Source: Amphiura filiformis
Taxonomy: Eukaryota; Echinodermata; Ophiuroidea; Amphilepidida; Amphiuridae
Assembly: GCF_039555335.1 (NCBI RefSeq)
Contig: NC_092628.1
Location: 102,570,647-102,634,646 of the forward strand
Direction: 5' to 3'
Length of the DNA: 64,000 nucleotides
Part shown: positions 1 to 38,013 of the stretch, piece by piece
Numbering within the stretch: the stretch's first letter is position 1
How the letters are laid out: each line of letters begins with the position of its first letter
Position numbers and translations under genes: made by a program
The notes under the pieces: generated by a model
The model's input: the letters and a program-made list of their open reading frames with translations, nothing else
The model's database searches: none
Told to the model about the DNA's origin: nothing

Positions 1-435
1 TTGATCAAAACCAGTTAAACAGGTGATTGGTATTGTACTCCGTGCATTTGCATGTCCTCTGGAGCGTGTCTTTAGGATGGTTTGAACTTTGTGATCTTCC
101 ATGCAAGCACCCTATAGTAGAAACCTCAAAATGTATCAGTTTACCATAATGACAAAATGGTCCAAAATCGACATTTTATGTTTTTAGGCCGCATCTCACG
201 AAGCGTCACGTTCGTTTACATTTGCTATACCAATTGAAAATGTTTTATTGCAAAAGGAATGAAACATTTGTTTCATATATTAAATTTGTTAACAGTTAAG
301 TTTACCAATTTGAATTGAAATAAATACGCAAAACAACTCATTTCTGAATATTATTTATATTAAAATACGCTTTTGCGATGAGAAAAAAACAAGAAAAGAA
401 AAAGAAAACAACAATTGAATATACTTTTAAAAAAA

Positions 436-517
436 GACCACCAATGAGACTCGAACCACATCGGTCAATAGTCAAAAGGTTATCAGTCTGAGGACTAATC
501 CGCTACGCCACGCTGCC
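436..517 (-). ncRNA. tRNA-like pol III unit, type A, unit 1
   Basis: An 82 nt tRNA-like sequence starting GGCAGCG. It has an A-box match (TGGCGTAGCGG), a B-box match (GGTTCGAGTC) and a T7 run directly after its end (plus strand 429-435). TATAAAAG lies upstream at 550-557. Type A lacks four bases before the B box compared with type C. The acceptor and T stems do not pair properly, so it is tRNA-derived rather than a clear tRNA. Confidence 0.6.
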
Positions 518-539
518 ATTTCGCAATCGAAGTAACAAG

Positions 540-1050
540 TTGTGTTTATCTTTTATAGTAGTCAGGTATGAAAGTTCACATGTTTTAAAGTGTAAACTTG
601 TATAGTAGAAATTGTATCAGTTTACCATAATGACAAAATGGTCCAAAATCGATATTTTATGTTTTTGCATCTCATGAAGCGTCACGTTCGTTTACATTTG
701 CTATACCAATTGAGAATGTTTTAATGCAAAAGGAATGAAACATTGATTTCATTTTGTTAAATTTTAATTTTGAATTGAAAGAAATACGCATATATATATT
801 TATTTCAATTCAAAATGGTAAAGTGTTAACAAATTTCATATAAGAGATCAAGGTGTCATTCCTTTTGCATTAAAACATTCTCAATTGGTATAGCAAATGT
901 AAACGAACGTGACGTTTCATGAGATGCGGCCTCAAAAACATAAAATGTCGATTTTGGACCATTTTGTCATTATGGTAAACTGATACACTTTGCCATTTCT
1001 ACTATACAAGTTTACACTTTCCTGATACCTGACTACTATAAAAGAACAAA
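540..1050. repeat. Palindrome P1 of unit 1
   Basis: Large imperfect inverted repeat centred near 797, seen for example as ATGCAAAAGGAATGA at 724-738 against TCATTCCTTTTGCAT at 856-870. Both arms share the segment that reads GTAAACTGATACAC on the right. A and B lie outside the two arms and are transcribed away from the centre. The right arm is well kept in other units, while the left arm and centre vary. Confidence 0.85.
1037..1044 (+). promoter_or_regulatory. TATA-like element upstream of type B unit
   Basis: TATAAAAG sits 30-37 bases before the tRNA-like start. The same word is present at the equivalent place in all the B copies and in most A and C copies. Upstream TATA boxes support pol III transcription of tRNA genes in several eukaryotes. 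The role here is inferred. Confidence 0.5.
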
Positions 1051-1073
1051 ACTTGTTACTTCGTTTGTGCAAT

Positions 1074-1159
1074 GGCAGCGTGGCGTAGCGGATTAGTCCT
1101 CCGACTGTTAACCTTTTGGCTATTGACTGATGTGCATGGTTCGAGTCCCAATGGTGGTC
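1074..1159 (+). ncRNA. tRNA-like pol III unit, type B, unit 1
   Basis: An 86 nt tRNA-like sequence, the length of a class II tRNA. The A box TGGCGTAGCGG and the B box GGTTCGAGTCC are intact. TATAAAAG lies at 1037-1044, about 30-37 bases upstream, and T6 at 1164-1169 would terminate pol III. The loop CTGTTAA resembles an Asn (GTT) anticodon loop, but the flanking stem does not pair well. The 5' end resembles tRNA-Leu, but the 3' acceptor strand GGTGGTC does not match it. The ORF that starts two bases upstream is an artefact of reading this RNA unit. Confidence 0.65.
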
Positions 1160-1299
1160 TATATTTTTTCTTTAAGTGTATTAAATTGTTGTTTCTTTTT
1201 TCTTTTTTTTTTTTCATCGCAAAAGCGTATTTTGTTATAAATAATATTCAGAAATGAGTTGTTTCAAATTGTTACATCATAATAATCTTTCTGATTCGC

Positions 1300-3060
1300 T
1301 CGGATGTGCCTATACTCAGCAAACACAAGTTTTAGAGAAAACATAAATTTTACACGTTAGGTTATATCATAAAGGGTACATAACGTTTTAATAACATTCA
1401 AAAAAAGATTTTGGAAAACATGCTGCAAAACATTATGATATTGTACGAAAAATGCATTTGTAGTGTCTTTGAGTTATGAGACAAAACGAAAATTGATTCA
1501 GTATCATACAGAAGAGGGCCATAATTACAAAACTTGTGTCATTTAGCATAGGAGGTGTTGTCAGTGACCACTCCCTAAATAACTCAACATTTTTATCAAC
1601 AATTTTATTATGATTCAAAAGGATATTATCTACTCTCTAATCGTGTGCAATATGAAGCTCATACAACATTCTGTTTTTGAGTTATGGACAAAATCGACAT
1701 TTTAGAGCAGTTTAGAGCCATAATTATGAAAAGTGTGTAATTTAGCATATGGGGTGTTTTCAGTGACCACTCCCTAAATAAACCAAATTCTTTATCAACA
1801 ATTTTATTATGATTGCAAAGCATATAATCCCCTCTCAAATCGTGCAATATGAAGCTCATACAACATTCTGTTTTTGAGTTATGGACAAAAACGACATTTT
1901 AGAGCAGTTTAGAGCCATAATTATGAAACGTGTGTAATTTAGCATATGGGGTGCTTTGGGTGACCACTCCCTAAATAAACCAAATTCGTTATCAACAATT
2001 TTATTATGATTGCAAAGTATATAATCCACTCTCAAATCGTGTGAAATTTGAAGCTCATACGACATTCCGTTTTTGAGTTATGAGCAAAAACGAAATTTAG
2101 ATGAAATATTTTGCATTCGGTAGAGACAATCAAGGAAAAAAGTCCTTGGAACGCTTGGCACACTCTGTCGAAATTCCGTGCAGAATTTCTTATGTTCATG
2201 GAAATTACCTATATTGTGTTTGGGAAGAAACATGACATCTACAACAATGATTTACCCTTCCCCTCTCCCCATCAAGCAATGTTGGAACACATTGGGGAAC
2301 CGCTGAAGACATTGGCATTTCTCAACATTGCACGGGGGAGAGGGGGTGACAGTTTTCCGTTATTTACACGCAAGCGTTCCAAGACTTTTTTCCTTGATTG
2401 TCTCTACCGAATGCAAAATAGTTCATCTAAATTGCGTTTTTGTCTCATAACTCAAAAACGGAATGTCGTATGAGCTTCAAATTGCACACGATTTGAGAGT
2501 GGATTATATGCTTTGTAATCATAATAAAATTGTTGATAAAGAATTTGGTTTATTTAGGAGTGGTCATTGAAACACCCCTATGCTAAATTACTCACGTTTC
2601 TTAATCATGGCCATAAAATGCTATAGAATGTCTTTTTGTCCATAACTCAAAAACCGAATGTTGTATTGGTTTCATATTGCACCAGATTTGAGAGTAGATA
2701 ATATCCTTTTGAATCATAATAAAATTGTTGATAAAAATGTTGGGTTATTCAGGAGTGGTCACTGAAAACACCTCATATGCTAAATTACACAAGTTTCGTA
2801 ATAATGCCCTCTACTGTAGTCAAATTTCGTTTTTGTCTCGTAACTCAAAAACACTACAAAATACATTTTTTACAATATCACAATGTTTTGCAGCATGTTT
2901 CCAAAATATTTTCAATGTTATTAAAACTTCAAACATTTTGTACCCTTTATGATATAACCCAACATGTAAATGTTTTGTCTAAAACTTGTGTTTGCTGCGC
3001 ATAGGCAGATATAAATGTTTTCTGGCAAACTTGTGTATGCTGAGTATAGGCATATCCGAG
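1300..3060. repeat. Palindrome P2 of unit 1, made of ~200 bp subrepeats
   Basis: The left arm carries a subrepeat of about 200 bases marked by GAGTTATG at 1471, 1679, 1876 and 2075. The right arm carries the same module inverted, marked by CATAACTC or CGTAACTC near 2447, 2640 and 2835. CTTGGAACGCTT at 2145-2156 pairs with AAGCGTTCCAAG at 2372-2383. The loop holds a further nested inverted repeat (CCCCTCTCCCC near 2258 against GGGGGAGAGGGG near 2333). B and C flank P2 and point inward. Confidence 0.85.
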
Positions 3061-3191
3061 CGAATCACAAAGATTATGATGTAACAATTGGAAACAACTC
3101 ATTTCAGAATATTATTAAAATTAAGACACGCTTTTGTGATGAAAAAAAACACGAAAAAAAAACCCACAATTGAATATACATTTTTTAAAAA

Positions 3192-3277
3192 GACCACCAC
3201 TGGGACTCGAACCATTCACATCGGTCAATAGTCAAAAGGTTATCAGTCTGAGGACTAATCCGCTACGCCACGCTGCC
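3192..3277 (-). ncRNA. tRNA-like pol III unit, type C, unit 1
   Basis: An 86 nt copy with A box and B box intact, T5 directly after the 3' end (plus strand 3187-3191) and TATAAAAG upstream (3307-3314). Unlike type B it reads CTGATAA in the putative anticodon loop and GAATGG before the B box. In types A and C the region GGATTAGTC-CTCA-GACTGATAACC can form a strong non-tRNA hairpin. Confidence 0.65.
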
Positions 3278-3349
3278 ATTTCGCAATCGAAGTAACAAGT
3301 TTTGTTCTTTTATAGTAGTCAGGTATCGGGGAAAGTGTAAGTTAGATAG

Positions 3350-3545
3350 AGTGCTTGCACGAAAGGTCATGAGTTCAAATCATCTTCCAGACACGCTCCA
3401 TAAGATATGCTAATGCATGGAGTACAAAGAATTACTTTGATCAAAACCAGTTAAACAGGTGATTGGTATTGTACTCCGTGCATTTGCATGTCCTCTGGAG
3501 CGTGTCTTTAGGATGGTTTGAACTTTGTGATCTTCCATGCAAGCA
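3350..3545. repeat. Palindrome P3 at the unit 1/2 junction
   Basis: CATGGAGTAC at 3416-3425 mirrors GTACTCCGTG at 3471-3480, and CAGACACGCTCC mirrors GGAGCGTGTCT. The centre is near 3448. The distance from C to the next A across P3 is 590-598 bases at every junction examined, making this the most stable segment of the array. Confidence 0.85.
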
Positions 3546-3871
3546 CCCTATAGTAGAAACCTCAAAATGTATCAGTTTACCATAATGACAAAATGGTCCA
3601 AAATCGACATTTTATGTTTTTAGGCCGCATCTCACGAAGCGTCACGTTCGTTTACATTTGCTATACCAATTGAAAATGTTTTATTGCAAAAGGAATGAAA
3701 CATTTGTTTCATATATTAAATTTGTTAACAGTTAAGTTTACCAATTTGAATTGAAATAAATACGCAAAACAACTCATTTCTGAATATTATTTATATTAAA
3801 ATACGCTTTTGCGATGAGAAAAAACAAGAAAAGAAAAAGAAAACAACAATTGAATATACTTTTAAAAAAAA

Positions 3872-3953
3872 GACCACCAAAGAGACTCGAACCACATCGG
3901 TCAATAGTCAAAAGGTTATCAGTCTGAGGACTAATCCGCTACGCCACGCTGCC
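3872..3953 (-). ncRNA. tRNA-like unit, type A, unit 2
   Basis: 82 nt type A copy with one change near the 3' end (plus strand CCAAAGAGACTCG). A and B boxes kept. The DNA upstream of its 5' end is rearranged. Confidence 0.55.
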
Positions 3954-4347
3954 ATTTCGCAATGTTTGTTCTTTTATAGTAGGCTTTGCAAAAGGAATGA
4001 AACATTGATTTTATAGTAGAAATGTTAGGTTTACCATTGACAACCATTTTGAATTGAAAGAAATACGCATATATATTTATTTCAATTCAAAATGGTAAAG
4101 TGTTAACAAATTTCATATAAGAGATCAAGGTCATTCCTTTTGCATTAAAACATTCTCAATTGGTATAGCAAATGTAAACGAACGTGACGCTTCATGAGAT
4201 GCGGCCTCAAAACATAAAATGTCGATTTTGGACCATTTTGTCATTATGGTAAACTGATACACTTTGCCATTTCTACTATACAAGTTTACACTTTCCTGAT
4301 ACCTGACTACTATAAAAGAACAAAACTTGTTACTTCGTTTGTGCAAT

Positions 4348-4433
4348 GGCAGCGTGGCGTAGCGGATTAGTCCTCCGACTGTTAACCTTTTGGCTATTGA
4401 CTGATGTGCATGGTTCGAGTCCCAATGGTGGTC
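4348..4433 (+). ncRNA. tRNA-like unit, type B, unit 2
   Basis: 86 nt copy identical by eye to the unit 1 type B, with the same upstream TATAAAAG and downstream T-runs. Confidence 0.65.
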
Positions 4434-6458
4434 TATATTTTTCTTTAAGTGTATTAAATTGTTGTTTTTTTTCTTTTATTTTTTTTCTCATCGCAAAAGC
4501 GTATTTTGTTATAAATAATATTCAGAAATGAGTTGTTTCAAATTGTTACATCATAATAATCTTTCTGATTCGCTCGGATGTGCCTATACTCAGCAAACAC
4601 AAGTTTTAGAGAAAACATAAATTTTACACGTTAGGTTATATCATAAAGGGTACATAACGTTTTAATAACATTCAAAAAAGATTTTGGAAAACATGCTGCA
4701 AAACATTATGATATTGTACGAAAAATGCATTTGTAGTGTCTTTGAGTTATGAGACAAAAACGAAAATTGATTCAGTATCATACAGAAGAGGGCCATAATT
4801 ACAAAACTTGTGTCATTTAGCATAGGAGGTGTTGTCAGTGACCACTTTCTAAATAACTCAACATTTTTATCAACAATTTTATTATGATTCAAAAGGATAT
4901 TATCTACTCTCTAATCGTGTGCAATATGAAGCTCATACAACATTCTGTTTTTGAGTTATGGACAAAATCGACATTTTAGAGCAGTTTAGAGACAAAATAA
5001 TGAAAAGTGTGTAATTTAGCATATGTTTTTGAGGGTGTTTTCAGTGACCACTCCCTAAATAACTCAACAATTTTATTATGATTGCAAAGCATATAATCTT
5101 CTCTCAAATCGTGTACAATATTAAGCTCATACAACATTCTGTTTTTGAGTTATGGACAAAAACGACATTTTAGAGCAGTTTAGAGCCATAATTATGAAAC
5201 GTGTGTAATTTAGCATATGGGGTGTTTTCGGTGACCACTCCCTAAATAAACCAAATTCGTTATCAACAATTTTATTATGATTGCAAAGTATATAATCCAC
5301 TCTCAAATCGTGTGAAATTTGAAGTTTATAATGACATTCCGTTTTGAGTTATGAGCCAAAACGAAATTTAGATGAAATATTTTGCATTCGGTAGAGACAA
5401 TCAAGGAAAAAGTCCTTGGAACGCTTAATACACTCTGTCGAAATTCCGTGCAGAATTTCTTATGTTCATGGAAATTACCTATATTGTGTTTGGGAAGAAA
5501 CATGACATCTACAACAATGATTTATTCTTCCTCTCCCCATCAAGCAATGTTGGAACACATTGGGGAACCGCTGAAGACATTGGCATTTCTCAACATTGCA
5601 CGGGGGAGAGGGGGTGACAGTTTTCCGTTATTTACACGCAAGCGTTCCAAGACTTTTTTCCTTGATTGTCTCTACCGAATGCAAAATATTTCATCTAAAT
5701 TGCGTTTTTGTCTCATAACTCAAAAACGGAATGTCGTATGAGCTTCAAATTGCACACGATTTGAGAGTGGATTATATGCTTTGTAATCATAATAAAATTG
5801 TTGATAAAGAATTTGGTTTATTTAGGGGGTGGTCATTGGAAACACCCCCTATGCTAAATTACTCACGTTTCGCAATTATGGCACTCACCCGCTCGCAAAT
5901 GTCGTTTTTGTCCATAACTCAAAAACCGAATGTTGTATTGGTTTCATATTGCACCAGATTTGAGAGTAGATAATATCCTTTTGAATCATAATAAAATTGT
6001 TGATAAAAATGTTGGGTTATTCAGGAGTGGTCACTGAAAACACCTCATATGCTAAATTACACAAGTTTCGTAATAATGCCCTCTACTGTAGTCAAATTTC
6101 GTTTTTGTCTCGTAACTCAAAAACACTACAAATACATTTTTTACAATATCACAATGTTTTGCAGCATGTTTCCAAAATATTTTCAATGTTATTAAAACTT
6201 CAAACATTTTGTACCCTTTATGATATAACCCAACATGTAAATGTTTTGTCTAAAACTTGTGTTTGCTGAGTATAGGCATATATAAATGTTTTCTGGAAAA
6301 CTTGTGTATGCTGAGTATAGGCATATCCGAGCGAATCACAAAGATTATGATGTAACAATTTGAAACAACTCATTTCTGAATATTATTTCTATTAAGACAC
6401 GCTTTTGCGATGAGAAAAACACGAAAAAAACCCCACAATTGAATATACATTTTAAAAA

Positions 6459-6544
6459 GACCACCACTGGGACTCGAACCATTCACATCGGTCAATAGTC
6501 AAAAGGTTATCAGTCTGAGGACTAATCCGCTACGCCACGCTGCC
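6459..6544 (-). ncRNA. tRNA-like unit, type C, unit 2
   Basis: 86 nt type C copy with both internal boxes, an adjacent T5 and upstream TATAAAAG. Confidence 0.65.
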
Positions 6545-7136
6545 ATTTCGCAATCGAAGTAACAAGTTTTGTTCTTTTATAGTAGTCAGGTATCGGGGAA
6601 AGTGTAAGTTAGATAGAGTGCTTGCACGAAAGGTCATGAGTTCAAATCATCTTCAGACACGCTCCATAAGATATGCTAATGCATGGAGTACAAAGAATTA
6701 CTTTGATCAAAACCAGTTAAACAGGTGATTGGTATTGTACTCCGTGCATTTGCATGTCCTCTGGAGCGTGTCTTTAGGATGGTTTGAACTTTGTGATCTT
6801 CCATGCAAGCACCCTATAGTAGAAACCTCAAAATGTATCAGTTTACCATAATGACAAAATGGTCCAAAATCGACATTTTATGTTTTTAGGCCGCATCTCA
6901 CGAAGCGTCACGTTCGTTTACATTTGCTATACCAATTGAAAATGTTTTATTGCAAAAGGAATGAAACATTTGTTTCATATATTAAATTTGTTAACAGTTA
7001 AGTTTACCAATTTGAATTGAAATAAATACGCAAAACAACTCATTTCTGAATATTATTTATATTAAAATACGCTTTTGCGATGAGAAAAAACAAGAAAAGA
7101 AAAAGAAAACAACAATTGAATATACTTTTAAAAAAA

Positions 7137-7218
7137 GACCACCAATGAGACTCGAACCACATCGGTCAATAGTCAAAAGGTTATCAGTCTGAGGACTAAT
7201 CCGCTACGCCACGCTGCC
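7137..7218 (-). ncRNA. tRNA-like unit, type A, unit 3
   Basis: 82 nt type A copy with both boxes. The upstream TATA-like word is altered (TTTTAGTAGTAG on the plus strand near 7250). Confidence 0.55.
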
Positions 7219-7651
7219 ATTTCGCAATCGAAGTAACAAGTTGTGTTCTTTTAGTAGTAGTCAGGTATCGGGGAAAGTGTAAACTTGTATAGTTGGCAAA
7301 GTGTATCAGTTTACCATAATGACAAAATGGTCCAAAATCGATATTTTATGTTTTTGAGGCCGCATCTCATGAAGCGTCACGTTCGTTAACAAATTCCATA
7401 TGTTTGAATTCAAAATAAAGTGTTAACAAATTTCATTCCTTTTGCATTAAAACATTCTCAATTGGTATAGCAAATGTAAACGAACGTGACGCTTTCATGA
7501 GATGCGGCCTCAAAAACATAAAATGTCGATTTTGGACCATTTTGTCATTATGGTAAACTGATACACTTTGCCATTTCTACTATACAAGTTTACACTTTCC
7601 TGATACCTGACTACTATAAAAGAACAAAACTTGTTACTTCGTTTGTGCAAT

Positions 7652-7737
7652 GGCAGCGTGGCGTAGCGGATTAGTCCTCCGACTGTTAACCTTTTGGCTA
7701 TTGACTGATGTGCATGGTTCGAGTCCCAATGGTGGTC
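7652..7737 (+). ncRNA. tRNA-like unit, type B, unit 3
   Basis: 86 nt type B copy with A box, B box, upstream TATAAAAG and downstream T6. Confidence 0.65.
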
Positions 7738-9763
7738 TATATTTTTTCTTTAAGTGTATTAAATTGTTGTTTTTTTTTTCTTTTTTTTTTCTCATCGCAA
7801 AAGCGTATTTTGTTATAAATAATATTCAGAAATGAGTTGTTTCAAATTGTTACATCATAATAATCTTTCTGATTCGCTCGGATGTGCCTATACTCAGCAA
7901 ACACAAGTTTTAGAGAAAACATAAATTTTACACGTTAGGTTATATCATAAAGGGTACATAACGTTTTAATAACATTCAAAAAAGATTTTGGAAAACATGC
8001 TGCAAAACATTATGATATTGTACGAAAATGCATTTGTAGTGTCTTTGAGTTATGAGACAAAAACGAAAATTGATTCAGTATCATACAGAAGAGGGCCATA
8101 ATTACAAAACTTGTGTCATTTAGCATAGGAGGTGTTGTCAGTGACCACTTTCTAAATAACTCAACATTTTTATCAACAATTTTATTATGATTCAAAAGGA
8201 TATTATCTACTCTCTAATCGTGTGCAATATGAAGCTCATACAACATTCTGTTTTTGAGTTATGGACAAAATCGACATTTTAGAGCAGTTTAGAGCCATAA
8301 TTATGAAAAGTGTGTAATTTAGCATATGGGGTGTTTTCAGTGACCACTCCCTAAATAAACCAAATTCTTTATCAACAATTTTATCATGATTGCAAAGCAT
8401 ATAATCCCCTCTCAAATCGTGCAATATGAAGCTCATACAACATTCTGTTTTTGAGTTATGGACAAAAACGACATTTTAGAGCAGTTTAGAGCCATAATTA
8501 TGAAACGTGTGTAATTTAGCATGGAGGTGTTTTCGGTGACCACTCCCTAAATAAACCAAATTCGTTATCAACAATTTTATTATGATTGCAAAGCATATAA
8601 TCCACTCTCAAATCGTGTGAAATTTGAAGCCATGACATTCCGTTTTTGAGTTATGAGCCAAAACGAAATTTAGATGAAATATTTTGCATTCGGTAGAGAC
8701 AATCAAGGAAAAAGTCCTTGGAACGCTTAACACTCTGTCGAAATTCCGTGCAGAATTTCTTATGTTCATGGAAATTACCTATATTGTGTTTGGGAAGAAA
8801 CATGACATCTACAACAATGATTTATTCTTCCTCTCCCCATCAAGCAATGTTGGAACACATTGGGGAACCGCTGAAGACATTGGCATTTCTCAACATTGCA
8901 CGGGGAGAGGGGGTGAAGTTTTCCGTTATTTACACGCAAGCGTTCCAAGACTTTTTTCCTTGATTGTCTCTACCGAATGCAAAATAGTTCATCTAAATTG
9001 CGTTTTTGTCTCATAACTCAAAAACGGAATGTCGTATGAGCTTCAAATTGCACACGATTTGAGAGTGGATTATATGCTTTGTAATCATAATAAAATTGTT
9101 GATAAACAATTTGGTTTATTTAGGGAGTGGTCAATGGAAACACCCCCTATGCTAAATTACTCACGTTTCTTAATCATGGCTCTAAAATGTTTCTAAAATG
9201 TCGTTTTTGTCCATAACTCAAAAACCGAATGTTGTATTGGTTTCATATTGCACCAGATTTGAGAGAGTAGATAATATCTTTTGAATCATAATAAAATTGT
9301 TGATAAAAATGTTGGGTTATTCAGGAGTGGTCACTGAAAACACCTCATATGCTAAATTACACAAGTTTCGTAATAATGCCCTCTACTGTAGTCAAATTTC
9401 GTTTTTGTCTCGTAACTCAAAAACACTACAAATACATTTTTTTACAATATCACAATGTTTTGCAGCATGTTTCCAAAATATTTTCAATGTTATTAAAACT
9501 TCAAACATTTTGTACCCTTTATGATATAACCCAACATGTAAATGTTTTGTCTAAAACTTGTGTTTGCTGAGTATAGGCATATATAAATGTTTTCTGGAAA
9601 ACTTGTGTATGCTGAGTATAGGCATATCCGAGCGAATCACAAAGATTATGATGTAACAATTTGAAACAACTCATTTCTGAATATTATTTCTATTAAGACA
9701 CGCTTAAAAAAAAAAAAAAAACACGAAAAAAAACCCCACAATTGAATATACATTTTTTAAAAA

Positions 9764-9849
9764 GACCACCACTGGGACTCGAACCATTCACATCGGTCAA
9801 TAGTCAAAAGGTTATCAGTCTGAGGACTAATCCGCTACGCCACGCTGCC
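9764..9849 (-). ncRNA. tRNA-like unit, type C, unit 3
   Basis: 86 nt type C copy with both boxes. Its 3' flank has the unusual long A-run (plus strand about 9706-9722). Confidence 0.65.
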
Positions 9850-10444
9850 ATTTCGCAATCGAAGTAACAAGTTTTGTTCTTTTATAGTAGTCAGGTATCG
9901 GGGAAAGTGTAAAGTTGTATAGAGTACTTGCACGAAAGGTCATGAGTTCAAATCATCCCAGACACGCTCCATAAGATATGCTAATGCATGGAGTACAAAG
10001 AATTACTTTGATCAAAACCAGTTAAACAGGTGATTGGTATTGTACTCCGTGCATTTGCATGTCCTCTGGAGCGTGTCTTTAGGATGGTTTGAACTTTGTG
10101 ATCTTCCATGCAAGCACCCTATAGTAGAAACCTCAAAATGTATCAGTTTACCATAATGACAAAATGGTCCAAAATCGACATTTTATGTTTTAGGCCGCAT
10201 CTCACGAAGCGTCACGTTCGTTTACATTTGCTATACCAATTGAAAATGTTTTATTGCAAAAGGAATGAAACATTTGTTTCATATATTAAATTTGTTAACA
10301 GTTAAGTTTACCAATTTGAATTGAAATAAATACGCAAAACAACTCATTTCTGAATATTATTTATATTAAAATACGCTTTTGCGATGAGAAAAAACACCAA
10401 GAAAAGAAAAAAGAAAACAACAATTGAATATACTTTTAAAAAAA

Positions 10445-10526
10445 GACCACCAATGAGACTCGAACCACATCGGTCAATAGTCAAAAGGTTATCAGTCTGA
10501 GGACTAATCCGCTACGCCACGCTGCC
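10445..10526 (-). ncRNA. tRNA-like unit, type A, unit 4
   Basis: 82 nt type A copy, both internal boxes intact, TATAAAAG upstream. Confidence 0.6.
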
Positions 10527-11020
10527 ATTTCGCAATCGAAGTAACAAGTTGTGTTCTTTTATAGTAGTCAGGTATCGGGGAAAGTGTAAACTTGTATAGT
10601 AGAAATGGCAAAGTGTATCAGTTTACCATAATGACAAAATGGTCCAAAATGATATTTTAACATTGATTGAGAATATGCAAAAGGAATGAAACATTGATTT
10701 ACATTTTTTACTCACCATTTTGAATTGAAAGAAATACGCATATATATTTATTTCAATTCAAAATGGTAAAGTGTTAACAAATTTCATATAAGAGATCAAG
10801 GTGTCATTCCTTTTGCATTAAAACATTCTCAATTGGTATAGCAAATGTAAACGAACGTGACGCTTCATGAGATGCGGCCTCAAAACATAAAATGTCGATT
10901 TTGGACCATTTTGTCATTATGGTAAACTGATACACTTTGCCATTTCTACTATACAAGTTTACACTTTCCTGATACCTGACTACTATAAAAGAACAAAACT
11001 TGTTACTTCGTTTGTGCAAT

Positions 11021-11106
11021 GGCAGCGTGGCGTAGCGGATTAGTCCTCCGACTGTTAACCTTTTGGCTATTGACTGATGTGCATGGTTCGAGTCCCAATG
11101 GTGGTC
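11021..11106 (+). ncRNA. tRNA-like unit, type B, unit 4
   Basis: 86 nt type B copy, followed by T6 and then a long T-run near 11141-11158. Confidence 0.65.
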
Positions 11107-13138
11107 TATATTTTTTCTTTAAGTGTATTAAATTGTTGTTTTTTTTTTTTTTTTTTTTCTCATCGCAAAAGCGTATTTTGTTATAAATAATATTCAGAAA
11201 TGAGTTGTTTCAAATTGTTACATCATAATAATCTTTCTGATTCGCTCGGATGTGCCTATACTCAGCAAACACAAGTTTTAGAGAAAACATAAATTTTACA
11301 CGTTAGGTTATATCATAAAGGGTACATAACGTTTTAATAACATTCAAAAAAGATTTTGGAAAACATGCTGCAAAACATTATGATATTGTACGAAAAATGC
11401 ATTTGTAGTGTCTTTGAGTTATGAGACAAAAACGAAAATTGATTCAGTATCATACAGAAGAGGGCCATAATTACAAAACTTGTGTCATTTAGCATAGGAG
11501 GTGTTGTCAGTGACCACTCCCTAAATAACTCAACATTTTTATCAACAATTTTATTATGATTCAAAAGGATATTATCTACTCTCTAATCGTGTGCAATATG
11601 AAGCTCATACAACATTCTGTTTTTGAGTTATGGACAAAATCGACATTTTAGAGCAGTTTAGAGCCATAATTATGAAAAGTGTGTAATTTAGCATATGGGG
11701 TGTTTTCAGTGACCACTCCCTAAATAAACCAAATTCTTTATCAACAATTTTATTATGATTGCAAAGCATATAATCCCCTCTCAAATCGTATGCAATATGA
11801 AGCTCATACAACATTCTGTTTTTGAGTTATGGACAAAAACGACATTTTAGAGCAGTTTAGAGCCATAATTATGAAACGTGTGTAATTTAGCATATGGGGT
11901 GTTTTCGGTGACCACTCCCTAAATAAACCAAATTCGTTATCAACAATTTTATTATGATTGCAAAGTATATAATCCACTCTCAAATCGTGTGAAATTTGAA
12001 GCTCATATGACATTCCGTTTTTGAGTTATGAGCCAAAAACGAAATTTAGATGAAATATTTTGCATTCGGTAGAGACAATCAAGGAAAAAAGTCCTTGGAA
12101 CGCTTGGCACACTCTGTCGAAATTCCGTGCAGAATTTCTTATGTTCATGGAAATTACCTATATTGTGTTTGGGAAGAAACATGACATCTACAACAATGAT
12201 TTACCCTACCCCTCTCCCCATCAAGCAATGTTGGAACACATTGGGGAACCGCTGAAGACATTGGCATTTCTCAACATTGCACGGGGAGAGGGGTGACAGT
12301 TTTCCGTTATTTACACGCAAGCGTTCCAAGACTTTTTTCCTTGATTGTCTCTACCGAATGCAAAATATTTCATCTAAATTTCGTTTTTGTCTCATAACTC
12401 AAAAACGGAATGTCGTATGAGCTTCAAATTGCACACGATTTGAGAGTGGATTATATGCTTTGTAATCATAATAAAATTGTTGATAAAGAATTTGGTTTAT
12501 TTAGGAGTGGTCATTGGAAACACCCCTATGCTAAATTACTCACGTTTCTTAATCATGGCTCTAAAATGCTCTAAAATGTCGTTTTTGTCCATAACTCAAA
12601 AACCGAATGTTGTATTGGTTTCATATTGCACCAGATTTGAGAGTAGATAATATCCTTTTGAATCATAATAAAATTGTTGATAAAAATGTTGGGTTATTCA
12701 GGGAGTGGTCACTGAAAACACCTCATATGCTAAATTACACAAGTTTCGTAATAATGCCCTCTACTGTAGTCAAATTTCGTTTTTGTCTCGTAACTCAAAA
12801 ACACTACAAATACATTTTTTACAATATCACAATGTTTTGCAGCATGTTTCCAAAATATTTTCAATGTTATTAAAACTTCAAACATTTTGTACCCTTTATG
12901 ATATAACCCAACATGTAAATGTTTTGTCTAAAACTTGTGTTTGCTGAGTATAGGCATATATAAATGTTTTCTGAAAACTTGTGTATGCTGAGTATAGGCA
13001 TATCCGAGCGAATCACAAAGATTATGATGTAACAATTTGAAACAACTCATTTCTGAATATTATTTCTATTAAGACACGCTTTTGCGATGAGAAAAAACAC
13101 GAAAAAAAAACCCCACAATTGAATATACATTTTAAAAA

Positions 13139-13224
13139 GACCACCACTGGGACTCGAACCATTCACATCGGTCAATAGTCAAAAGGTTATCAGTCTGAGG
13201 ACTAATCCGCTACGCCACGCTACC
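13139..13224 (-). ncRNA. tRNA-like unit, type C, unit 4
   Basis: 86 nt type C copy carrying a G-to-A change on the plus strand (CGCTACC), which alters the 5' end to GGTAGCG, closer to tRNA-Leu. Confidence 0.65.
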
Positions 13225-13822
13225 ATTTCGCAATCGAAGTAACAAGTTTTGTTCTTTTATAGTAGTCAGGTATCGGGGAAAGTGTAAAGTTGTATAGAGT
13301 GCTTGCACGAAAGGTCATGAGTTCAAACCATCCTCCAGACACGCTCCATAAGATATGCTAATGCATGGAATACAAAGAATTACTTTGATCAAAACCAGTT
13401 AAACAGGTGATTGGTATTGTACTCCGTGCATTTGCATGTCCTCTGGAGCGTGTCTTTAGGATGGTTTGAACTTTGTGATCTTCCATGCAAGCACCCTATA
13501 GTAGAAACCTCAAAATGTATCAGTTTACCATAATGACAAAATGGTCCAAAATCGACATTTTATGTTTTTAGGCCGCATCTCACGAAGCGTCACGTTCGTT
13601 TACATTTGCTATACCAATTGAAAATGTTTTATTGCAAAAGGAATGAAACATTTGTTTCATATATTAAATTTGTTAACAGTTAAGTTTACCAATTTGAATT
13701 GAAATAAATACGCAAAACAACTCATTTCTGCATATTATTTATATTAAAATACGCTTTTGCGATGAGAAAAAAAAAACAAGAAAAGAAAAAAGAAAACAAC
13801 AATTGAATATACTTTAAAAAAA

Positions 13823-13904
13823 GACCACCAACGGGACTCGAACCACATCGGTCAATAGTCAAAAGGTTATCAGTCTGAGGACTAATCCGCTACGCCACGC
13901 TGCC
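13823..13904 (-). ncRNA. tRNA-like unit, type A, unit 5
   Basis: 82 nt type A copy in which the segment near the 3' end reads CCAACGGGACTCG on the plus strand, intermediate between A and C. Confidence 0.55.
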
Positions 13905-14265
13905 ATTTCGCAATCGCAAAAGTAACAAGTTGTGTTCTTTTATATTTAGTCATTTTATTGAAAGAAATACTATATATTTTATTTCAATTCAAAAATGGTA
14001 AAGTGTTAACAAATTTCATATAAAGATCAATCGTGTCATTCCTTTTGCATTAAAAACATTCGTTTCAATATAGCAATGTAAACGAATGTGACGCTTCATG
14101 AGATGCGGCCTCAAAAACATAAAATGTCGATTTTGGACCATTTTGTCATTATGGTAAACTGATACACTTTGCCATTTTGAATTGAAAGAAATACTATACA
14201 AGTTTACACTTTCCTGATACCTGACTACTATAAAAGAACAAAACTTGTTACTTCGTTTGTGCAAT

Positions 14266-14351
14266 GGCAGCGTGGCGTAGCGGATTAGTCCTCCGACTGT
14301 TAACCTTTTGGCTATTGACTGATGTGCATGGTTCGAGTCCCAATGGTGGTC
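14266..14351 (+). ncRNA. tRNA-like unit, type B, unit 5
   Basis: 86 nt type B copy with all promoter and terminator signals. Confidence 0.65.
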
Positions 14352-15863
14352 TATATTTTTCTTTAAGTGTATTAAATTGTTGTTTTTTTTTCTTTATTTT
14401 TTTCTCATCGCAAAAGCGTATTTTGTTATAAATAATATTCAGAAATGAGTTGTTTCAAATTGTTACATCATAATAATCTTTCTGATTCGCTCGGATGTGC
14501 CTATACTCAGCAAACACAAGTTTTAGAGAAAACATAAATTTTACACGTTAGGTTATATCATAAAGGGTACATAACGTTTTAATAACATTCAAAAAAGATT
14601 TTGGAAAACATGCTGCAAAACATTATGATATGGTACGAAAAATGCATTTGTAGTGTCTTTGAGTTATGAGACAAAAACGAAAATTGATTCAGTATCATAC
14701 AGAAGAGGGCCATAATTACAAAACTTGTGTCATTTAGCATAGGAGGTGTTGTCAGTGACCACTCCCTAAATAACTCAACATTTTATCAACAATTTTATTA
14801 TGATTCAAAAGGATATTATCTACTCTCTAATCGTGTGCAATATGAAGCTCATACAACATTCTGTTTTTGAGTTATGGACAAAATCGACATTTTAGAGCAG
14901 TTTAGAGCCATAATTATGAAAAGTGTGTAATTTAGCATATGGGGTGTTTTCAGTGACCACTCCCTAAATAAACCAAATTCTTTTTCAACAATTTTATTAT
15001 GATTGCAAAGCATATAATCCCCTCTCAAATCGTGTGCAATATGAAGCTCATACAACATTCTGTTTTTGAGTTATGGACAAAAACGACATTTTAGAGCAGT
15101 TTAGAGCCATAATTATGAAACGTGTGTAATTTAGCATATGGGGTGTTTTCGGTGACCACTCCCTAAATAAACCAAATTCGTTATCAACAATTTTATTATG
15201 ATTGCAAAGTATATAATCCACTCTCAAATCGTGTGAAATTTGAAGCTCATACGACATTCCGTTTTTGAGTTATGAGCCAAAAACGAAATTTAGATGAAAT
15301 ATTTTGCATTCGGTAGAGACTTGCACGAAAGGTCATGAGTTCAAACCATCCTCCAGACACGCTCCATAAGATATGCTAATGCATGGAATACAAAGAATTA
15401 CTTTGATCAAAACCAGTTAAACAGGTGATTGGTATTGTACTCCGTGCATTTGCATGTCCTCTGGAGCGTGTCTTTAGGATGGTTTGAACTTTGTGATCTT
15501 CCATGCAAGCACCCTATAGTAGAAACCTCAAAATGTATCAGTTTACCATAATGACAAAATGGTCCAAAATCGACATTTTATGTTTTTAGGCCGCATCTCA
15601 CGAAGCGTCACGTTCGTTTACATTTGCTATACCAATTGAAAATGTTTTATTGCAAAAGGAATGAAACATTTGTTTCATATATTAAATTTGTTAACAGTTA
15701 AGTTTACCAATTTGAATTGAAATAAATACGCAAAACAACTCATTTCTGCATATTATTTATATTAAAATACGCTTTTGCGATGAGAAAAAAAAAAAAAACC
15801 AAAAAAGAAAACAAAATTGAAATATTTTTAAAAAACAATTGAATATACATCGGTTTCAAAAAA

Positions 15864-15915
15864 GACCACCAATGAGACTCGAAGAAGTTGTGTTCACATC
15901 GGTCAATAGTCAAGG
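15864..15915 (-). pseudogene. Broken type A tRNA-like copy, unit 6
   Basis: Only the 3' part (GACCACCAATGAGACTCGAA on the plus strand) and a short middle piece (CACATCGGTCAATAGTCAAG) remain, separated by foreign bases. The A box is gone, so no pol III activity is expected. Confidence 0.7.
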
Positions 15916-16265
15916 TTTAGTGACAAAAGGAATGAAACATTGCTATTTGTTTACGCTTTGCCATTTTGAATTGAAAGTAAATACGCATATATTTTATTTC
16001 AATTCAAATGGTAAAGTGTTAACAAATTTCATATAAGAGATCAAAGTGTCATTCAGTTTGCATTAAAACATTCTCAATTGGTATAGCAAATGTAAACGAA
16101 CGTGACGTTTCATGAGATGCGGCCTCAAAACATAAAATGTCGATTTTGGACCATTTTGTCATTATGGTAAACTGATACACTTTGCCATTTCTACTATACA
16201 AGTTTACACTTTCCTGATACCTGACTACTATAAAAGAACAAAACTTGTTACTTCGTTTGTGCAAT

Positions 16266-16351
16266 GGCAGCGTGGCGTAGCGGATTAGTCCTCCGACTGT
16301 TAACCTTTTGGCTATTGACTGATGTGCATGGTTCGAGTCCCAATGGTGGTC
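16266..16351 (+). ncRNA. tRNA-like unit, type B, unit 6
   Basis: 86 nt type B copy with all signals. Confidence 0.65.
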
Positions 16352-18383
16352 TATATTTTTCTTTAAGTGTATTAAATTGTTGTTTTTTTTTCTTTTTTTT
16401 TTCTCATCGCAAAAGCGTATTTTGTTATAAATAATATTCAGAAATGAGTTGTTTCAAATTGTTACATCATAATAATCTTTCTGATTCGCTCGGATGTGCC
16501 TATACTCAGCAAACACAAGTTTTAGAGAAAACATAAATTTTACACGTTAGGTTATATCATAAAGGGTACATAACGTTTTAATAACATTCAAAAAAGATTT
16601 TGGAAAACATGCTGCAAAACATTATGATATTGTACGAAAAATGCATTTGTAGTGTCTTTGAGTTATGAGACAAAAACGAAAATTGATTCAGTATCATACA
16701 GAAGAGGGCCATAATTACAAAACTTGTGTCATTTAGCATAGGAGGTGTTGTCAGTGACCACTCCCTAAATAACTCAACATTTTTATCAACAATTTTATTA
16801 TGATTCAAAAGGATATTATCTACTCTCTAATCGTGTGCAATATGAAGCTCATACAACATTCTGTTTTTGAGTTATGGACAAAATCGACATTTTAGAGCAG
16901 TTTAGAGCCATAATTATGAAAAGTGTGTAATTTAGCATATGGGGTGTTTTCAGTGACCACTCCCTAAATAAACCAAATTCTTTATCAACAATTTTATTAT
17001 GATTGCAAGCATATAATCCCCTCTCAAATCGTGTGCAATATGAAGCTCATACAACATTCTGTTTTTGAGTTATGGACAAAAACGACATTTTAGAGCAGTT
17101 TAGAGCCATAATTATGAAACGTGTGTAATTTAGCATATGGGGTGTTTTCGGTGACCACTCCCTAAATAAACCAAATTCGTTATCAACAATTTTATTATGA
17201 TTGCAAAGTATATAATCCACTCTCAAATCGTGTGAAATTTGAAGCTCATACGACATTCCGTTTTTGAGTTATGAGCCAAAAACGAAATTTAGATGAAATA
17301 TTTTGCATTCGGTAGAGACAATCAAGGAAAAAAGTCCTTGGAACGCTTGGCACACTCTGTCGAAATTCCGTGCAGAATTTCTTATGTTCATGGAAATTAC
17401 CTATATTGTGTTTGGGAAGAAACATGACATCTACAACAATGATTTACCCTTCCCTCTCCCCATCAAGCAATGTTGGAACACATTGGGGAACCGCTGAAGA
17501 CATTGGCATTTCTCAACATTGCACGGGGAGAGGGGTGACAGTTTTCCGTTATTTACACGCAAGCGTTCCAAGACTTTTTTCCTTGATTGTCTCTACCGAA
17601 TGCAAAATATTTCATCTAAATTGCGTTTTTGTCTCATAACTCAAAAACGGAATGTCGTATGAGCTTCAAATTGCACACGATTTGAGAGTGGATTATATGC
17701 TTTGTAATCATAATAAAATTGTTGATAAAGAATTTGGTTTATTTAGGAGTGGTCATTGGAAACACCCCCTATGCTAAATTACTCACGTTTCTTAATCATG
17801 GCTCTAAAATGCTCTAAAATGTCGTTTTTGTCCATAACTCAAAAACCGAATGTTGTATTGGTTTCATATTGCACCAGATTTGAGAGAAGATAATATCCTT
17901 TTGAATCATAATAAAATTGTTGATAAAAATGTTGGGTTATTCAGGGAGTGGTCACTGAAAACACCTCATATGCTAAATTACACAAGTTTCGTAATAATGC
18001 CCTCTACTGTAGTCAAATTTCGTTTTTGTCTCGTAACTCAAAAACACTACAAATACATTTTTTTACAATATCACAATGTTTTGCAGCATGTTTCCAAAAT
18101 ATTTTCAATGTTATTAAAACTTCAAACATTTTGTACCCTTTATGATATAACCCAACATGTAAATGTTTTGTCTAAAACTTGTGTTTGCTGAGTATAGGCA
18201 TATATAAATGTTTTCTGAAAACTTGTGTATGCTGAGTATAGGCATATCCGAGCGAATCACAAAGATTATGATGTAACAATTTGAAACAACTCATTTCTGA
18301 ATATTATTTCTATTAAGACACGCTTTTGCGATGAGAAAAAACACGAAAAAAAAAACCACAATTGAATATACATTTTTTAAAAA

Positions 18384-18469
18384 GACCACCACTGGGACTC
18401 GAACCATTCACATCGGTCAATAGCCAAAAGGTTATCAGTCTGAGGACTAATCCGCTACGCCACGCTACC
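18384..18469 (-). ncRNA. tRNA-like unit, type C, unit 6
   Basis: 86 nt type C copy with the CGCTACC variant and TAGCCAAAAGG in place of TAGTCAAAAGG on the plus strand. The second change makes it more like type B. Confidence 0.65.
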
Positions 18470-19059
18470 ATTTCGCAATCGAAGTAACAAGTTTTGTTCT
18501 TTTATAGTAGTCAGGTATCGGGGAAAGTGTAAAGTTGTATAGAGTGCTTGCACGAAAGGTCATGAGTTCAAACCATCCTCCTGACACGCTCCATAAGATA
18601 TGCTAATGCATGGAATACAAAGAATTACTTTGATCAAAACCAGTTAAACAGGTGATTGGTATTGTACTCCGTGCATTTGCATGTCCTCTGGAGCGTGTCT
18701 TTAGGATGGTTTGAACTTTGTGATCTTCCATGCAAGCACCCTATAGTAGAAACCTCAAAATGTATCAGTTTACCATAATGACAAAATGGTCCAAAATCGA
18801 CATTTTATGTTTTTAGGCCGCATCTCACGAAGCGTCACGTTCGTTTACATTTGCTATACCAATTGAAAATGTTTTATTGCAAAAGGAATGAAACATTTGT
18901 TTCATATATTAAATTTGTTAACAGTTAAGTTTACCAATTTGAATTGAAATAAATACGCAAAACAACTCATTTCTGCATATTATTTATATTAAAATACGCT
19001 TTTGCGATGAGAAAAAAAAAAAAAAAAAAAAAACAACAATTGAATATACTTTAAAAAAA

Positions 19060-19141
19060 GACCACCAATGAGACTCGAACCACATCGGTCAATAGTCAAA
19101 AGGTTATCAGTCTGAGGACTAATCCGCTACGCCACGCTGCC
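19060..19141 (-). ncRNA. tRNA-like unit, type A, unit 7
   Basis: 82 nt type A copy with both internal boxes. The 3' flank has collapsed to a pure A-run on the plus strand (about 19013-19033). Confidence 0.6.
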
Positions 19142-19509
19142 ATTTCGCTATCGAAGTAACAAGTTGTGTTCTTTTATAGTAGTCTTATCAGAAGGAAAGA
19201 GTTGAATTGAAAGAAATGGCAAATATATTCATTTACCAATTCAAAATGGTAAAATCGATTCAATTCAAATTTCATATAAGAGATCAAGGTGTCATTCCTT
19301 TTGCATTAAAACATTCTCAATTGGTATAGCAAATGTAAACGAACGTGACGCTTCATGAGATGCGGCCTCAAAAACATAAAATGTCGATTTTGGACCATTT
19401 TGTCATTATGGTAAACTGATACACTTTGCCATTTCTACTATACAAGTTTACACTTCCCTGATACCTGACTACTATAAAAGAACAAAACTTGTTACTTCGT
19501 TTGTGCAAT

Positions 19510-19595
19510 GGCAGCGTGGCGTAGCGGATTAGTCCTCCGACTGTTAACCTTTTGGCTATTGACTGATGTGCATGGTTCGAGTCCCAATGGTGGTC
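19510..19595 (+). ncRNA. tRNA-like unit, type B, unit 7
   Basis: 86 nt type B copy with all signals. Confidence 0.65.
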
Positions 19596-21183
19596 TATAT
19601 TTTTTCTTTAAGTGTATTAAATTGTTGTTTTTTTTCTTTTATTTTTTCTCATCGCAAAAGCGTATTTTGTTATAAATAATATTCAGAAATGAGTTGTTTC
19701 AAATTGTTACATCATAATAATCTTTCTGATTCGCTCGGATGTGCCTATACTCAGCAAACACAAGTTTTAGAGAAAACATAAATTTTACACGTTAGGTTAT
19801 ATCATAAAGGGTACATAACGTTTTAATAACATTCAAAAAAAGATTTTGGAAAACATGCTGCAAAACATTATGATATGGTACGAAAAATGCATTTGTAGTG
19901 TCTTTGAGTTATGAGACAAAAACGAAAATTGATTCAGTATCATACAGAAGAGGGCCATAATTACAAAACTTGTGTCATTTAGCATAGGAGGTGTTGTCAG
20001 TGACCACTCCCTAAATAACTCAACATTTTTATCAACAATTTTATTATGATTCAAAAGGATATTATCTACTCTCTAATCGTGTGCAATATGAAGCTCATAC
20101 AACATTCTGTTTTTGAGTTATGGACAAAATCGACATTTTAGAGCAGTTTAGAGCCATAATTATGAAAAGTGTGTAATTTAGCATATGGGGTGTTTTCAGT
20201 GACCACTCCCTAAATAAACCAAATTCTTTATCAACAATTTTATTATGATTGCAAAGCATATAATCCCCTCTCAAATCGTGTGCAATATGAAGCTCATACA
20301 ACATTCTGTTTTTGAGTTATGGACAAAAACGACATTTTAGAGCAGTTTAGAGCCATAATTATGAAACGTGTGTAATTTAGCATATGGGGTGTTTTCGGTG
20401 ACCACTCCTAAATAAACCAAATTCGTTATCAACAATTTTATTATGATTGCAAAGTATATAATCCACTCTCAAATCGTGTGAAATATGAAGCTCAAACGAC
20501 ATTCCGTTTTTGAGTTATGAGAATTTGGTTTATTCTAGGAGTGGTCATTGTCATTGAACGAAATTTAGATGCTAAATTACTCACGTTTGCTTAATCATGG
20601 CTCTAAAATGCTCTAAAATGTCGTTTTTGTCCATAACTCAAAAAACCGAATGTTGTATTGGTTTCATATTGCACCAGATTTGAGAGAAGATAATATCCTT
20701 TTGAATCATAATAAAATTGTTGATAAAATGTTGGGTTATTCAGGAGTGGTCACTGAAAACACCTCATATGCTAAATTACACAAGTTTCGTAATAATGCCC
20801 TCTACTGTAGTCAAATTTCGTTTTTGTCTCGTAACTCAAAAACACTACAAATACATTTTTTTACAATATCACAATGTTTTGCAGCATGTTTCCAAAATAT
20901 TTTCAATGTTATTAAAACTTCAAACATTTTGTACCCTTTATGATATAACCCAACATGTAAATGTTTTGTCTAAAACTTGTGTTTGCTGAGTATAGGCATA
21001 TATAAATGTTTTCTGGAAAACTTGTGTATGCTGAGTATAGGCATATCCGAGCGAATCACAAAGATTATGATGTAACAATTTGAAACAACTCATTTCTGAA
21101 TATTATTTCTATTAAGACACGCTTTTGCGATGAGAAAAAACACGAAAAAAAAACCCCACAATTGAATATACATTTTTAAAAAA

Positions 21184-21269
21184 GACCACCACTGGGACTC
21201 GAACCATTCACATCGGTCAATAGCCAAAAGGTTATCAGTCTGAGGACTAATCCGCTACGCCACGCTACC
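21184..21269 (-). ncRNA. tRNA-like unit, type C, unit 7
   Basis: 86 nt type C copy sharing both sequence variants of the unit 6 C copy. Confidence 0.65.
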
Positions 21270-21867
21270 ATTTCGCAATCGAAGTAACAAGTTTTGTTCT
21301 TTTATAGTAGTCAGGTATCGGGGAAAGTGTAAAGTTGTATAGAGTGCTTGCACGAAAGGTCATGAGTTCAAACCATCCTCCAGACACGCTCCATAAGATA
21401 TGCTAATGCATGGAATACAAAGAATTACTTTGATCAAAACCAGTTAAACAGGTGATTGGTATTGTACTCCGTGCATTTGCATGTCCTCTGGAGCGTGTCT
21501 TTAGGATGGTTTGAACTTTGTGATCTTCCATGCAAGCACCCTATAGTAGAAACCTCAAAATGTATCAGTTTACCATAATGACAAAATGGTCCAAAATCGA
21601 CATTTTATGTTTTAGGCCGCATCTCACGAAGCGTCACGTTCGTTTACATTTGCTATACCAATTGAAAATGTTTTATTGCAAAAGGAATGAAACATTTGTT
21701 TCATATATTAAATTTGTTAACAGTTAAGTTTACCAATTTGAATTGAAATAAATACGCATAAACAACTCATTTCTGCATATTATTTATATTAAAATACGCA
21801 TTTGCGATGAGAAAAAAAAAAAAAGAAAAAAAAAAAAAAACAAAAATTGAATATACTTTAAAAAAAA

Positions 21868-21947
21868 GACCACCAATGAGACTCGAATCACATCGGTCAA
21901 TAGTCAAAGGTTATCAGTCTGAGGATAATCCGCTACGCCACGCTGCC
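21868..21947 (-). pseudogene. Eroded type A tRNA-like copy, unit 8
   Basis: 80 nt copy with two single-base deletions (in the AAAGG and GAGGATAATCC segments) and a change in the B box (GATTCGAGTC on the minus strand). Probably inactive. Confidence 0.6.
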
Positions 21948-22276
21948 ATTTCGCAATTGAAAGTAACAAGTATGTGTTCTTTTATAGTATTCAGGTATGG
22001 GAAAGTGTAAAATTGTATAGTAGAAATCAAAGTGTATCAGTTTACCATAATGACAAACATGGTCAAAATCGATATTTTATGTTTTTGAGGCCGCATCAAA
22101 TGTAAACGAACGTGACGTTCGTTTACAGATGCTATACCAAAACATAAAATGTCGATTTTGGACCATTTTGTCATTATGGTAAACTGAAACTTTGCCATTT
22201 CATACTATACAAGTTTACACTTTACCCGATACATGACTACTATAAAAGAACAAAACTTGTTACTTCGTTTTGCAAT

Positions 22277-22362
22277 GGCAGCGTGGCGTAGCGGATTAGT
22301 CCTCCGACTGTTAACCTTTTGGCTATTGACTGATGTGCATGGTTCGAGTCCCAATGGTGGTC
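22277..22362 (+). ncRNA. tRNA-like unit, type B, unit 8
   Basis: 86 nt type B copy, intact, followed by T-runs. One base is missing just upstream (CGTTTTGCAATGG), outside the RNA. Confidence 0.65.
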
Positions 22363-23609
22363 TATATTTTTTTTCTTTAAGTGTATTAAATTGTTGTTTT
22401 TTTTTTTCTTTTATTTTTTCTCATCGCAAAAGCGTATTTTGTTATAAATAATATTCAGAAATGAGTTGTTTCAAATTGTTACATCATAATAATCTTTCTG
22501 ATTCGCTCGGATGTGCCTATACTCAGCAAACACAAGTTTTAGAGAAAACATAAATTTTACACGTTAGGTTATATCATAAAGGGTACATAACGTTTTAATA
22601 ACATTCAAAAAAAGATTTTGGAAAACATGCTGCAAAACATTATGATATGGTACGAAAAATGCATTTGTAGTGTCTTTGAGTTATGAGACAAAAACGAAAA
22701 TTGATTCAGTATCATACAGAAGAGGGCCATAATTACAAAACTTGTGTCATTTAGCATAGGAGGTGTTGTCAGTGACCACTCCTAAATAACTCAACATTTT
22801 TATCAACAATTTTATTATGATTCAAAAGGATATTATCTACTCTCTAATCGTGTGCAATATGAAGCTCATACAACATTCTGTTTTTGAGTTATGGACAAAA
22901 TCGACATTTTAGAGCAGTTTAGAGCCATAATTATGAAAAGTGTGTAATTTAGCATATGGGGTGTTTTCAGTGACCACTCCCTAAATAAACCAAATTCTTT
23001 ATCAACAATTTTATTATGATTGCAAAGCATATAATCCCCTCTCAAATCGTATGCAATATGAAGCTCATACAACATTCTGTTTTTGAGTTATGGACAAAAA
23101 CGACATTTTAGAGCAGTTTAGAGCCATAATTATGAAACGTGTGTAATTTAGCATATGGGGTGTTTTCGGTGACCACTCCTAAATAAACCAAATTCGTTAT
23201 CAACAATTTTATTATGATTGCAAAGTATATAATCCACTCTCAAATCGTGTGAAATTTGAAGCTCATACGACATTCCGTTTTTGAGTTATGAGCCAAAAAC
23301 GAAATTTAGATGAAATATTTTGCATTCGGTAGAGACAATCAAGGAAAAAAGTCCTTGGAACGCTTGGCACACTCTGTCGAAATTCCGTGCAGAATTTCTT
23401 ATGTTCATGGAAATTACCTATATTGTGTTTGGGAAGAAACATGACATCTACAACAATGATTTACCCTTCCCTCTCCCCATCAAGCAATGTTGGAACACAT
23501 TGGGGAACCGCTGAAGACATTGGCATTTCTCAACATTGCACGGGGGAGAGGGGGTGACAGTTTTCCGTTATTTACACGCAAGCGTTCCAAGACTTTTTTC
23601 CTTGATTGT

Positions 23610-36329: not shown

Positions 36330-36338
36330 GGGAAGTTG

Positions 36339-37614: not shown

Positions 37615-37626
37615 TTTACGAGTAAA

Positions 37627-37989: not shown

Positions 37990-37999
37990 AGTACAGTAT

Positions 38000-38011: not shown

Positions 38012-38013
38012 GT

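Follow-up and report, generated by a model that had tools for sequence, protein, structure and literature searches.

The nearest described architecture that we found for the repeat array considered here is that of Tetris, a foldback element of Drosophila virilis with long inverted arms that contain internal tandem repeats of ~220 bp, a non-coding middle and a link to satellite formation (PMC4079207). The nearest case found of a tRNA-derived promoter outside short interspersed nuclear elements (SINEs) is that of Helenus/TRIMp3, in which the long terminal repeats (LTRs) carry a tRNA-derived segment with A and B boxes, the sequence around the boxes is conserved, and for the majority of families no tRNA is predicted (PMC10886601). 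tRNA-derived SINEs themselves, partly as described in PMC10886601 and partly as generally understood, start with a degenerate tRNA head in which the A and B boxes accompany a decayed cloverleaf, and repeats bearing the promoter of a small RNA are also reported to form long tandem arrays in Cassandra (PMC7215508). Here, we describe a tandem array that occupies positions 1 to 23,609 of a 64,000-nucleotide stretch of the Amphiura filiformis genome (NC_092628.1, positions 102,570,647 to 102,634,646), referred to as the window. Like Tetris, it has long inverted arms that include tandem repeats (~199 bp), a non-coding middle and a satellite-like arrangement; as in Helenus and the SINEs, a degenerate tRNA-derived segment with A and B boxes is present. 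With a probability of roughly 70%, we take the array to be a satellite that arose from a foldback-like element carrying a SINE-like, tRNA-Arg-derived RNA polymerase III (Pol III) promoter module; its features resemble those of a satellite of transposon origin more than those of a new RNA gene.

Organization of the array

The array consists of inverted-repeat composite units of ~3.3 kb, some of them shorter, in which A, B and C denote three types of tRNA-like module, X a block of at least 160 bases repeated around A and B, R a set of ~199-base internal tandem repeats, I the middle section that closes the B-C palindrome, and M1 a hairpin (Table 1). The units lie head to tail and are nearly identical, as in a satellite: units 1, 2, 3, 4 and 6 differ from each other by 0.4-1.4% (10/10 pairs). 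A first-pass annotation, made from the sequence by a model, had counted eight tandem units with 22 tRNA-like copies of types A, B and C. The 22 copies were recovered, 21 of them complete (seven A and six C on the minus strand, eight B on the plus strand; 96.6-100% identity to the type queries) and one a remnant, whereas eight units is a minimum, because the window begins within unit 1 and the array continues past its left end. Module C is missing from unit 5 and from the last unit, which stops at 23609, and in unit 6 A is reduced to a remnant. The sole open reading frame (ORF) of at least 120 amino acids in the array, 2111-2473, had no Pfam match at E values up to 0.01.

Table 1. Coordinates of the array, its modules and examples of its palindromes (prime, minus strand).
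Feature	Position	Strand	Remarks
Tandem array	1..23609	.	layout X'-A'-X'|X-B-R-I-R'-C'-M1; open at left window edge
Module A1	436..524	-	query match, module alignment
Module B1	1067..1159	+	TATAAAAG at 1037, A box 1081, B box 1138
Module C1	3192..3284	-	query match, module alignment
M1 hairpin	3341..3554	.	214 bases, most paired in predicted RNA fold, -113 kcal/mol
Module A2	3872..3960	-	query match, module alignment
Module B2	4341..4433	+	query match, module alignment
Module C2	6459..6551	-	query match, module alignment
A-B palindrome (example)	6967..7907	.	A3 and B3 plus 170 bases on either outer side; 27/412 aligned sites differ, 117 gap letters
Module A3	7137..7225	-	TATAAAAG gone
B-C palindrome (example)	7580..9922	.	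arms 7580-8480 and 8992-9922; 82% over 958 columns; ~199-base internal repeats; closed by part I
Module B3	7645..7737	+	query match, module alignment
Module C3	9764..9856	-	query match, module alignment
Module A4	10445..10533	-	query match, module alignment
Module B4	11014..11106	+	query match, module alignment
Module C4	13139..13231	-	query match, module alignment
Module A5	13823..13911	-	query match, module alignment
Module B5	14259..14351	+	in unit 5, without C
Module remnant at A position	15864..15913	-	50 bases, 80%; A box region unmatched
Module B6	16259..16351	+	query match, module alignment
Module C5	18384..18476	-	query match, module alignment
Module A6	19060..19148	-	query match, module alignment
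Module B7	19503..19595	+	query match, module alignment
Module C6	21184..21276	-	query match, module alignment
Module A7	21868..21954	-	two 1-base deletions; B box altered
Module B8	22271..22362	+	query match, module alignment

Modules A and B share the upstream flank X, while B and C share their downstream sequence, which suggests that a single module was duplicated together with its surroundings to yield the three types. The arms of the A-B palindrome differ by 5.8-7.5% in all four units tested. As palindrome arms differ by ~7% and whole units by only 0.4-1.4%, the palindromes are likely to be older than the tandem array. The A-B spacers have eight different lengths in the eight units, ranging from 316 to 542 bases (between 524 and 22271; one measured from the remnant). 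In contrast, the C-A spacers measure 583-591 bases in 6/6 cases and the B-C spacers 2025-2032 in 5/6, the sixth being 1588. Recurrent loss of DNA at the centre of the short-spaced palindrome would be the simplest cause of this variability. Further copies of M1, with the motif at 6620, 13301, 18546 and 21346, were folded as well; by reading, AAGGTC in the left arm of M1 is followed by the B-box-like word GTTCAAAYC, which may come from another tRNA-derived repeat.

Within the window, the repeat is confined to the array. Queries with the type modules matched the remaining 40 kb over only 12-20 bases, no dispersed module copies were seen there, and the whole array gave only two AT-rich matches of 55-59 bases (76%) to this part. 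A search for relatives with four exact patterns against viral contigs and one against prokaryote genome contigs returned no match, which says little on eukaryotes.

Promoter-like anatomy of the modules

Module searches together with an alignment of the 21 complete modules bore out a Pol III promoter-like anatomy; the A box, B box, TATA and T-run words discussed below are established Pol III promoter elements. The A box core TGGCGTAGCGG is present in 21/21 modules, and GGTTCGAGTC in all except A7, which carries GATTCGAGTC. A run of five to eight T begins within 10 bases of GGTGGTC in every module. The full B box GGTTCGAGTCC occurs in 15/21 (eight B, six C and one A); six of the seven A copies deviate from it. 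The first-pass statement that complete copies keep an A box, a B box and a close T-run was confirmed. That most copies keep an upstream TATA-type word at a distance of 30-40 bases was confirmed: TATAAAAG accompanies 20 modules, A3 being the exception, and in B1 the distance from it (1037) to the first tRNA-like base (1075) is 38 bases. The array has 20 copies of this word, and the remaining 40 kb has two. The whole set of TATAAAAG, A box core, GGTTCGAGTC and T-run is found in 19/21 modules (exceptions A3 and A7), and the eight B copies are identical across their 86-base tRNA-like part. A pattern of A box, B box and T4 matched the window at 22 places, of which 20 lie in the array and two in tRNA genes at 38 kb; none of 100 mononucleotide-shuffled versions of the window gave a match.

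Divergence of modules and arms

The B and C arms were compared by pairwise alignment in units 1, 2, 3, 4 and 6, leaving out unit 7 with its shortened spacer. In this order of units, the tRNA-like part shows 6, 6, 6, 7 and 6 differences over 86 sites (7.0-8.1%), and the rest of the arm 57/818, 64/828, 57/825, 55/831 and 54/831 (6.5-7.7%). Window-by-window pairwise figures for three units gave an equal level of divergence inside and outside the module. The near-identity of the copies therefore fits a recent amplification of units that differ by 0.4-1.4%, with a tRNA-like part that diverges like its arm, and the first-pass suggestion that the array may be a source of an undescribed short RNA is not supported by the sequence as far as a functional RNA is concerned. 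The sequence indicates neither constraint on the modules at the RNA level nor a selected RNA product. As a more general caution, consensus A and B boxes in near-identical copies do not demonstrate a functional RNA if conservation is just as high across the entire unit.

Several observations weigh against the reading as a satellite derived from a foldback-like element. The A and B boxes show 0/22 changes between B and C in 5/5 units, where ~1.5 would be expected at 7%; this invariance is not significant, and weak constraint on the two boxes would be compatible with it. Between types, divergence is higher in the immediate downstream flank, which is T-rich, at 8-18%, against 2-7% in the module and likewise 2-7% in the immediate upstream flank. 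A first multiple alignment gave 6/86 differences in the tRNA-like part against 197/999 in the rest of the arm (p 0.002), and 0/22 in the boxes (p 0.02). This apparent excess of conservation vanished in pairwise alignment and was discarded, because unequal numbers of the 199-base repeat had forced the arms out of register. Finally, searches revealed neither a target-site duplication nor a settled outer end, so that the status of an "element" is read from the arm structure; by reading, the arms end in TA-rich palindromic sequence, and all copies within the window lie inside the array.

The invariance of the boxes speaks for the possibility that the modules might be TFIIIC-binding sites that produce no RNA and serve boundary, clustering or recombination functions, the array being a chromatin element. 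As many as three modules per unit would suit such a role. However, 0/22 changes are not significant at 7% divergence, and a pure TFIIIC site would need neither TATAAAAG, kept in 20/21 modules, nor the T-run, kept in 21/21, so that we regard this explanation as unlikely, although it fares best among the alternatives.

Relation to tRNA and known RNA families

Among 28 tRNA references, the best match to the modules was tRNA-Arg(TCG), which suggests that the modules derive from tRNA-Arg. Fitted to a tRNA cloverleaf, the three type sequences form 13-14 of the 21 stem pairs. The acceptor stem, described in the first pass as not tRNA-like, is rather decayed, as five of its seven pairs form, two of them G-T. 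The accompanying view that the product is probably not a decoding tRNA was strengthened, as RF00005 was absent both from the array at its gathering score and from positions 1-4000, B1 and C1 at E values up to 10, and ARAGORN at default thresholds called no tRNA in the array. A functional tRNA with an intron or a long variable arm was likewise not called there at the default threshold with introns of up to 300 bases allowed. At lowered thresholds, 176 and 203 calls were scattered across the array and are hence uninformative, and the mitochondrial mode marked 10 places, all at modules, as mtRNA-Asn, a label that we do not trust.

In a scan of the array, no Rfam family reached its gathering score. 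Vault RNAs are short Pol III RNAs with A and B boxes, and Vault RNA (RF00006) was the sole family listed for B1; it was rejected at 12.5 bits (E 2.5) against a gathering score of 34, and was not listed for C1. Weak matches to microRNA, small nucleolar RNA and long non-coding RNA families in positions 1-4000 stayed far under the gathering scores and did not cover the modules. The predicted RNA folds of A1, B1 and C1 were no more stable than those of mononucleotide shuffles (z -0.4, 1.0 and 0.4, respectively), and that of B1 differs from the other two.

These results, together with the altered B box in six of seven A copies, argue against an undescribed functional RNA. A gene array encoding a genuine, undescribed short Pol III RNA, in which A, B and C would be paralogues amplified for dosage like 5S or tRNA arrays, would account for the whole promoter set in 19/21 modules, for the eight identical B copies and for terminators placed directly behind the module. 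It would, however, leave unexplained why the tRNA-like part shows no excess conservation over the arm, why the three folded modules have neither a stable nor a common fold, why Rfam matches at E values up to 10 are at chance level, and why the B box of type A has changed; hence, we consider it very unlikely. Slightly less credible still is a dedicated Pol III array for new tRNA-Arg-derived short RNAs, with A/B divergent and B/C convergent within nested palindromes, which would be maintained by their promoters and not by an RNA fold. Least credible of all is that foldback reads or chimeras created the array during assembly or amplification. Inverted duplications are a known artefact type and the unit lengths do vary, but copies made in this way would be nearly identical, whereas substitution divergence is ~7% between the B and C arms in 5/5 units and of similar size between A and B in 4/4.

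Comparison with known elements

With foldback elements the array shares long inverted arms in which tandem repeats are embedded, and with SINEs a head that resembles a tRNA and contains both the A and the B box. In Tetris, however, it is the internal repeat that has been amplified and not an entire composite unit as here, and the element is flanked by 8-10 bp target-site duplications (PMC4079207, in whose main text the word "tRNA" is absent). Around A3, B1 and C1, one copy per type, the longest candidate duplication was 6 bases or none, and shuffles reach 11. In Helenus, two LTRs are accompanied by a primer-binding site and a polypurine tract, and the target-site duplications measure 4-5 bp (PMC10886601); none of these features was recognised here. 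The core shared by the module copies spans ~265 bases, and the A and C cores do form direct repeats (88%). By eye in one unit, they lack TG..CA ends, the ends being uncertain by some bases, and neither a TGG-type primer site nor a purine tract borders them. The array thus corresponds in full to neither Tetris nor Helenus.

Compared with tRNA-derived SINEs, the T-run follows directly behind the head, within 10 bases in 21/21 modules, and the copies have spread by duplication; no SINE body and no LINE-like (long interspersed nuclear element) or A-rich tail was seen, the sequence beyond the T-run not having been compared with LINEs. Cassandra differs as a 5S-derived plant LTR element (PMC7215508; for its LTR nature also PMC10886601). 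Among the titles and abstract openings of the literature matches listed, subscription papers and Repbase being outside the scope, none placed a tRNA-derived promoter within a foldback element or a palindromic satellite, and the 12-mer GTGGCGTAGCGG was matched in a single paper, whose title points to hydroxyapatite.

Proposed origin

We propose that the satellite started from a composite, non-coding foldback-like element, whose long inverted arms with internal 199-base repeats would have borne a SINE-like module of TATA, A box, B box and T-run. Inverted duplication of a single ancestral module, flanks included, would have given rise to types A, B and C, followed later by tandem amplification of the entire ~3.3-kb unit, while the short-spaced A-B palindrome would keep changing in length, most likely through DNA loss. 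Because the boxes have outlived the cloverleaf, the module probably once drove transcription of the mobile ancestor. It may still bind TFIIIC and yield sporadic Pol III transcripts of ~90-100 nt, as decayed SINE heads can; present-day transcription is thus a possibility predicted from the promoter words, and such RNA would most likely not be maintained by selection as a product. If this reading is correct, small-RNA-derived Pol III promoters outside SINEs, as in Cassandra and Helenus, would extend from LTRs to foldback-like inverted arms. The array also provides a natural series of one palindrome with a different spacer length in each of eight units.

Other features of the window

Two identical, fully folding tRNA-Val(GAC) genes (38251-38323 and 38683-38755, minus strand; 65 bits) reside in a ~432-base tandem repeat (38025-38906, 97% identical) directly upstream of a minus-strand set of reverse-transcriptase ORFs that is Penelope-like in look. 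To our knowledge, a tRNA-Val with GAC is unusual in the animal nucleus, and the pair may therefore represent a tRNA-bearing repeat or an element promoter. The adjoining region 35781-38022 (minus strand) is probably a Penelope-like element: of its separate ORFs, one matches RVT_1 with 28.3 bits, just below the Pfam cut-off of 29.6, and the end of another resembles GIY-YIG by eye without a Pfam match. A LINE-like remnant lies at 29337-32436 (plus strand), with an RVT_1 match of 137 bits in 31018-31989. A 41-base satellite of 15 copies (99% matches) occupies 40080-40698, and blocks of 79-92% link the sequence around it to 47021-48178. Two further arrays, at 51893-52053 and 53046-53317, are built from nearly the same 20-base repeat, TGCGGACTACNGGTATGGTA.

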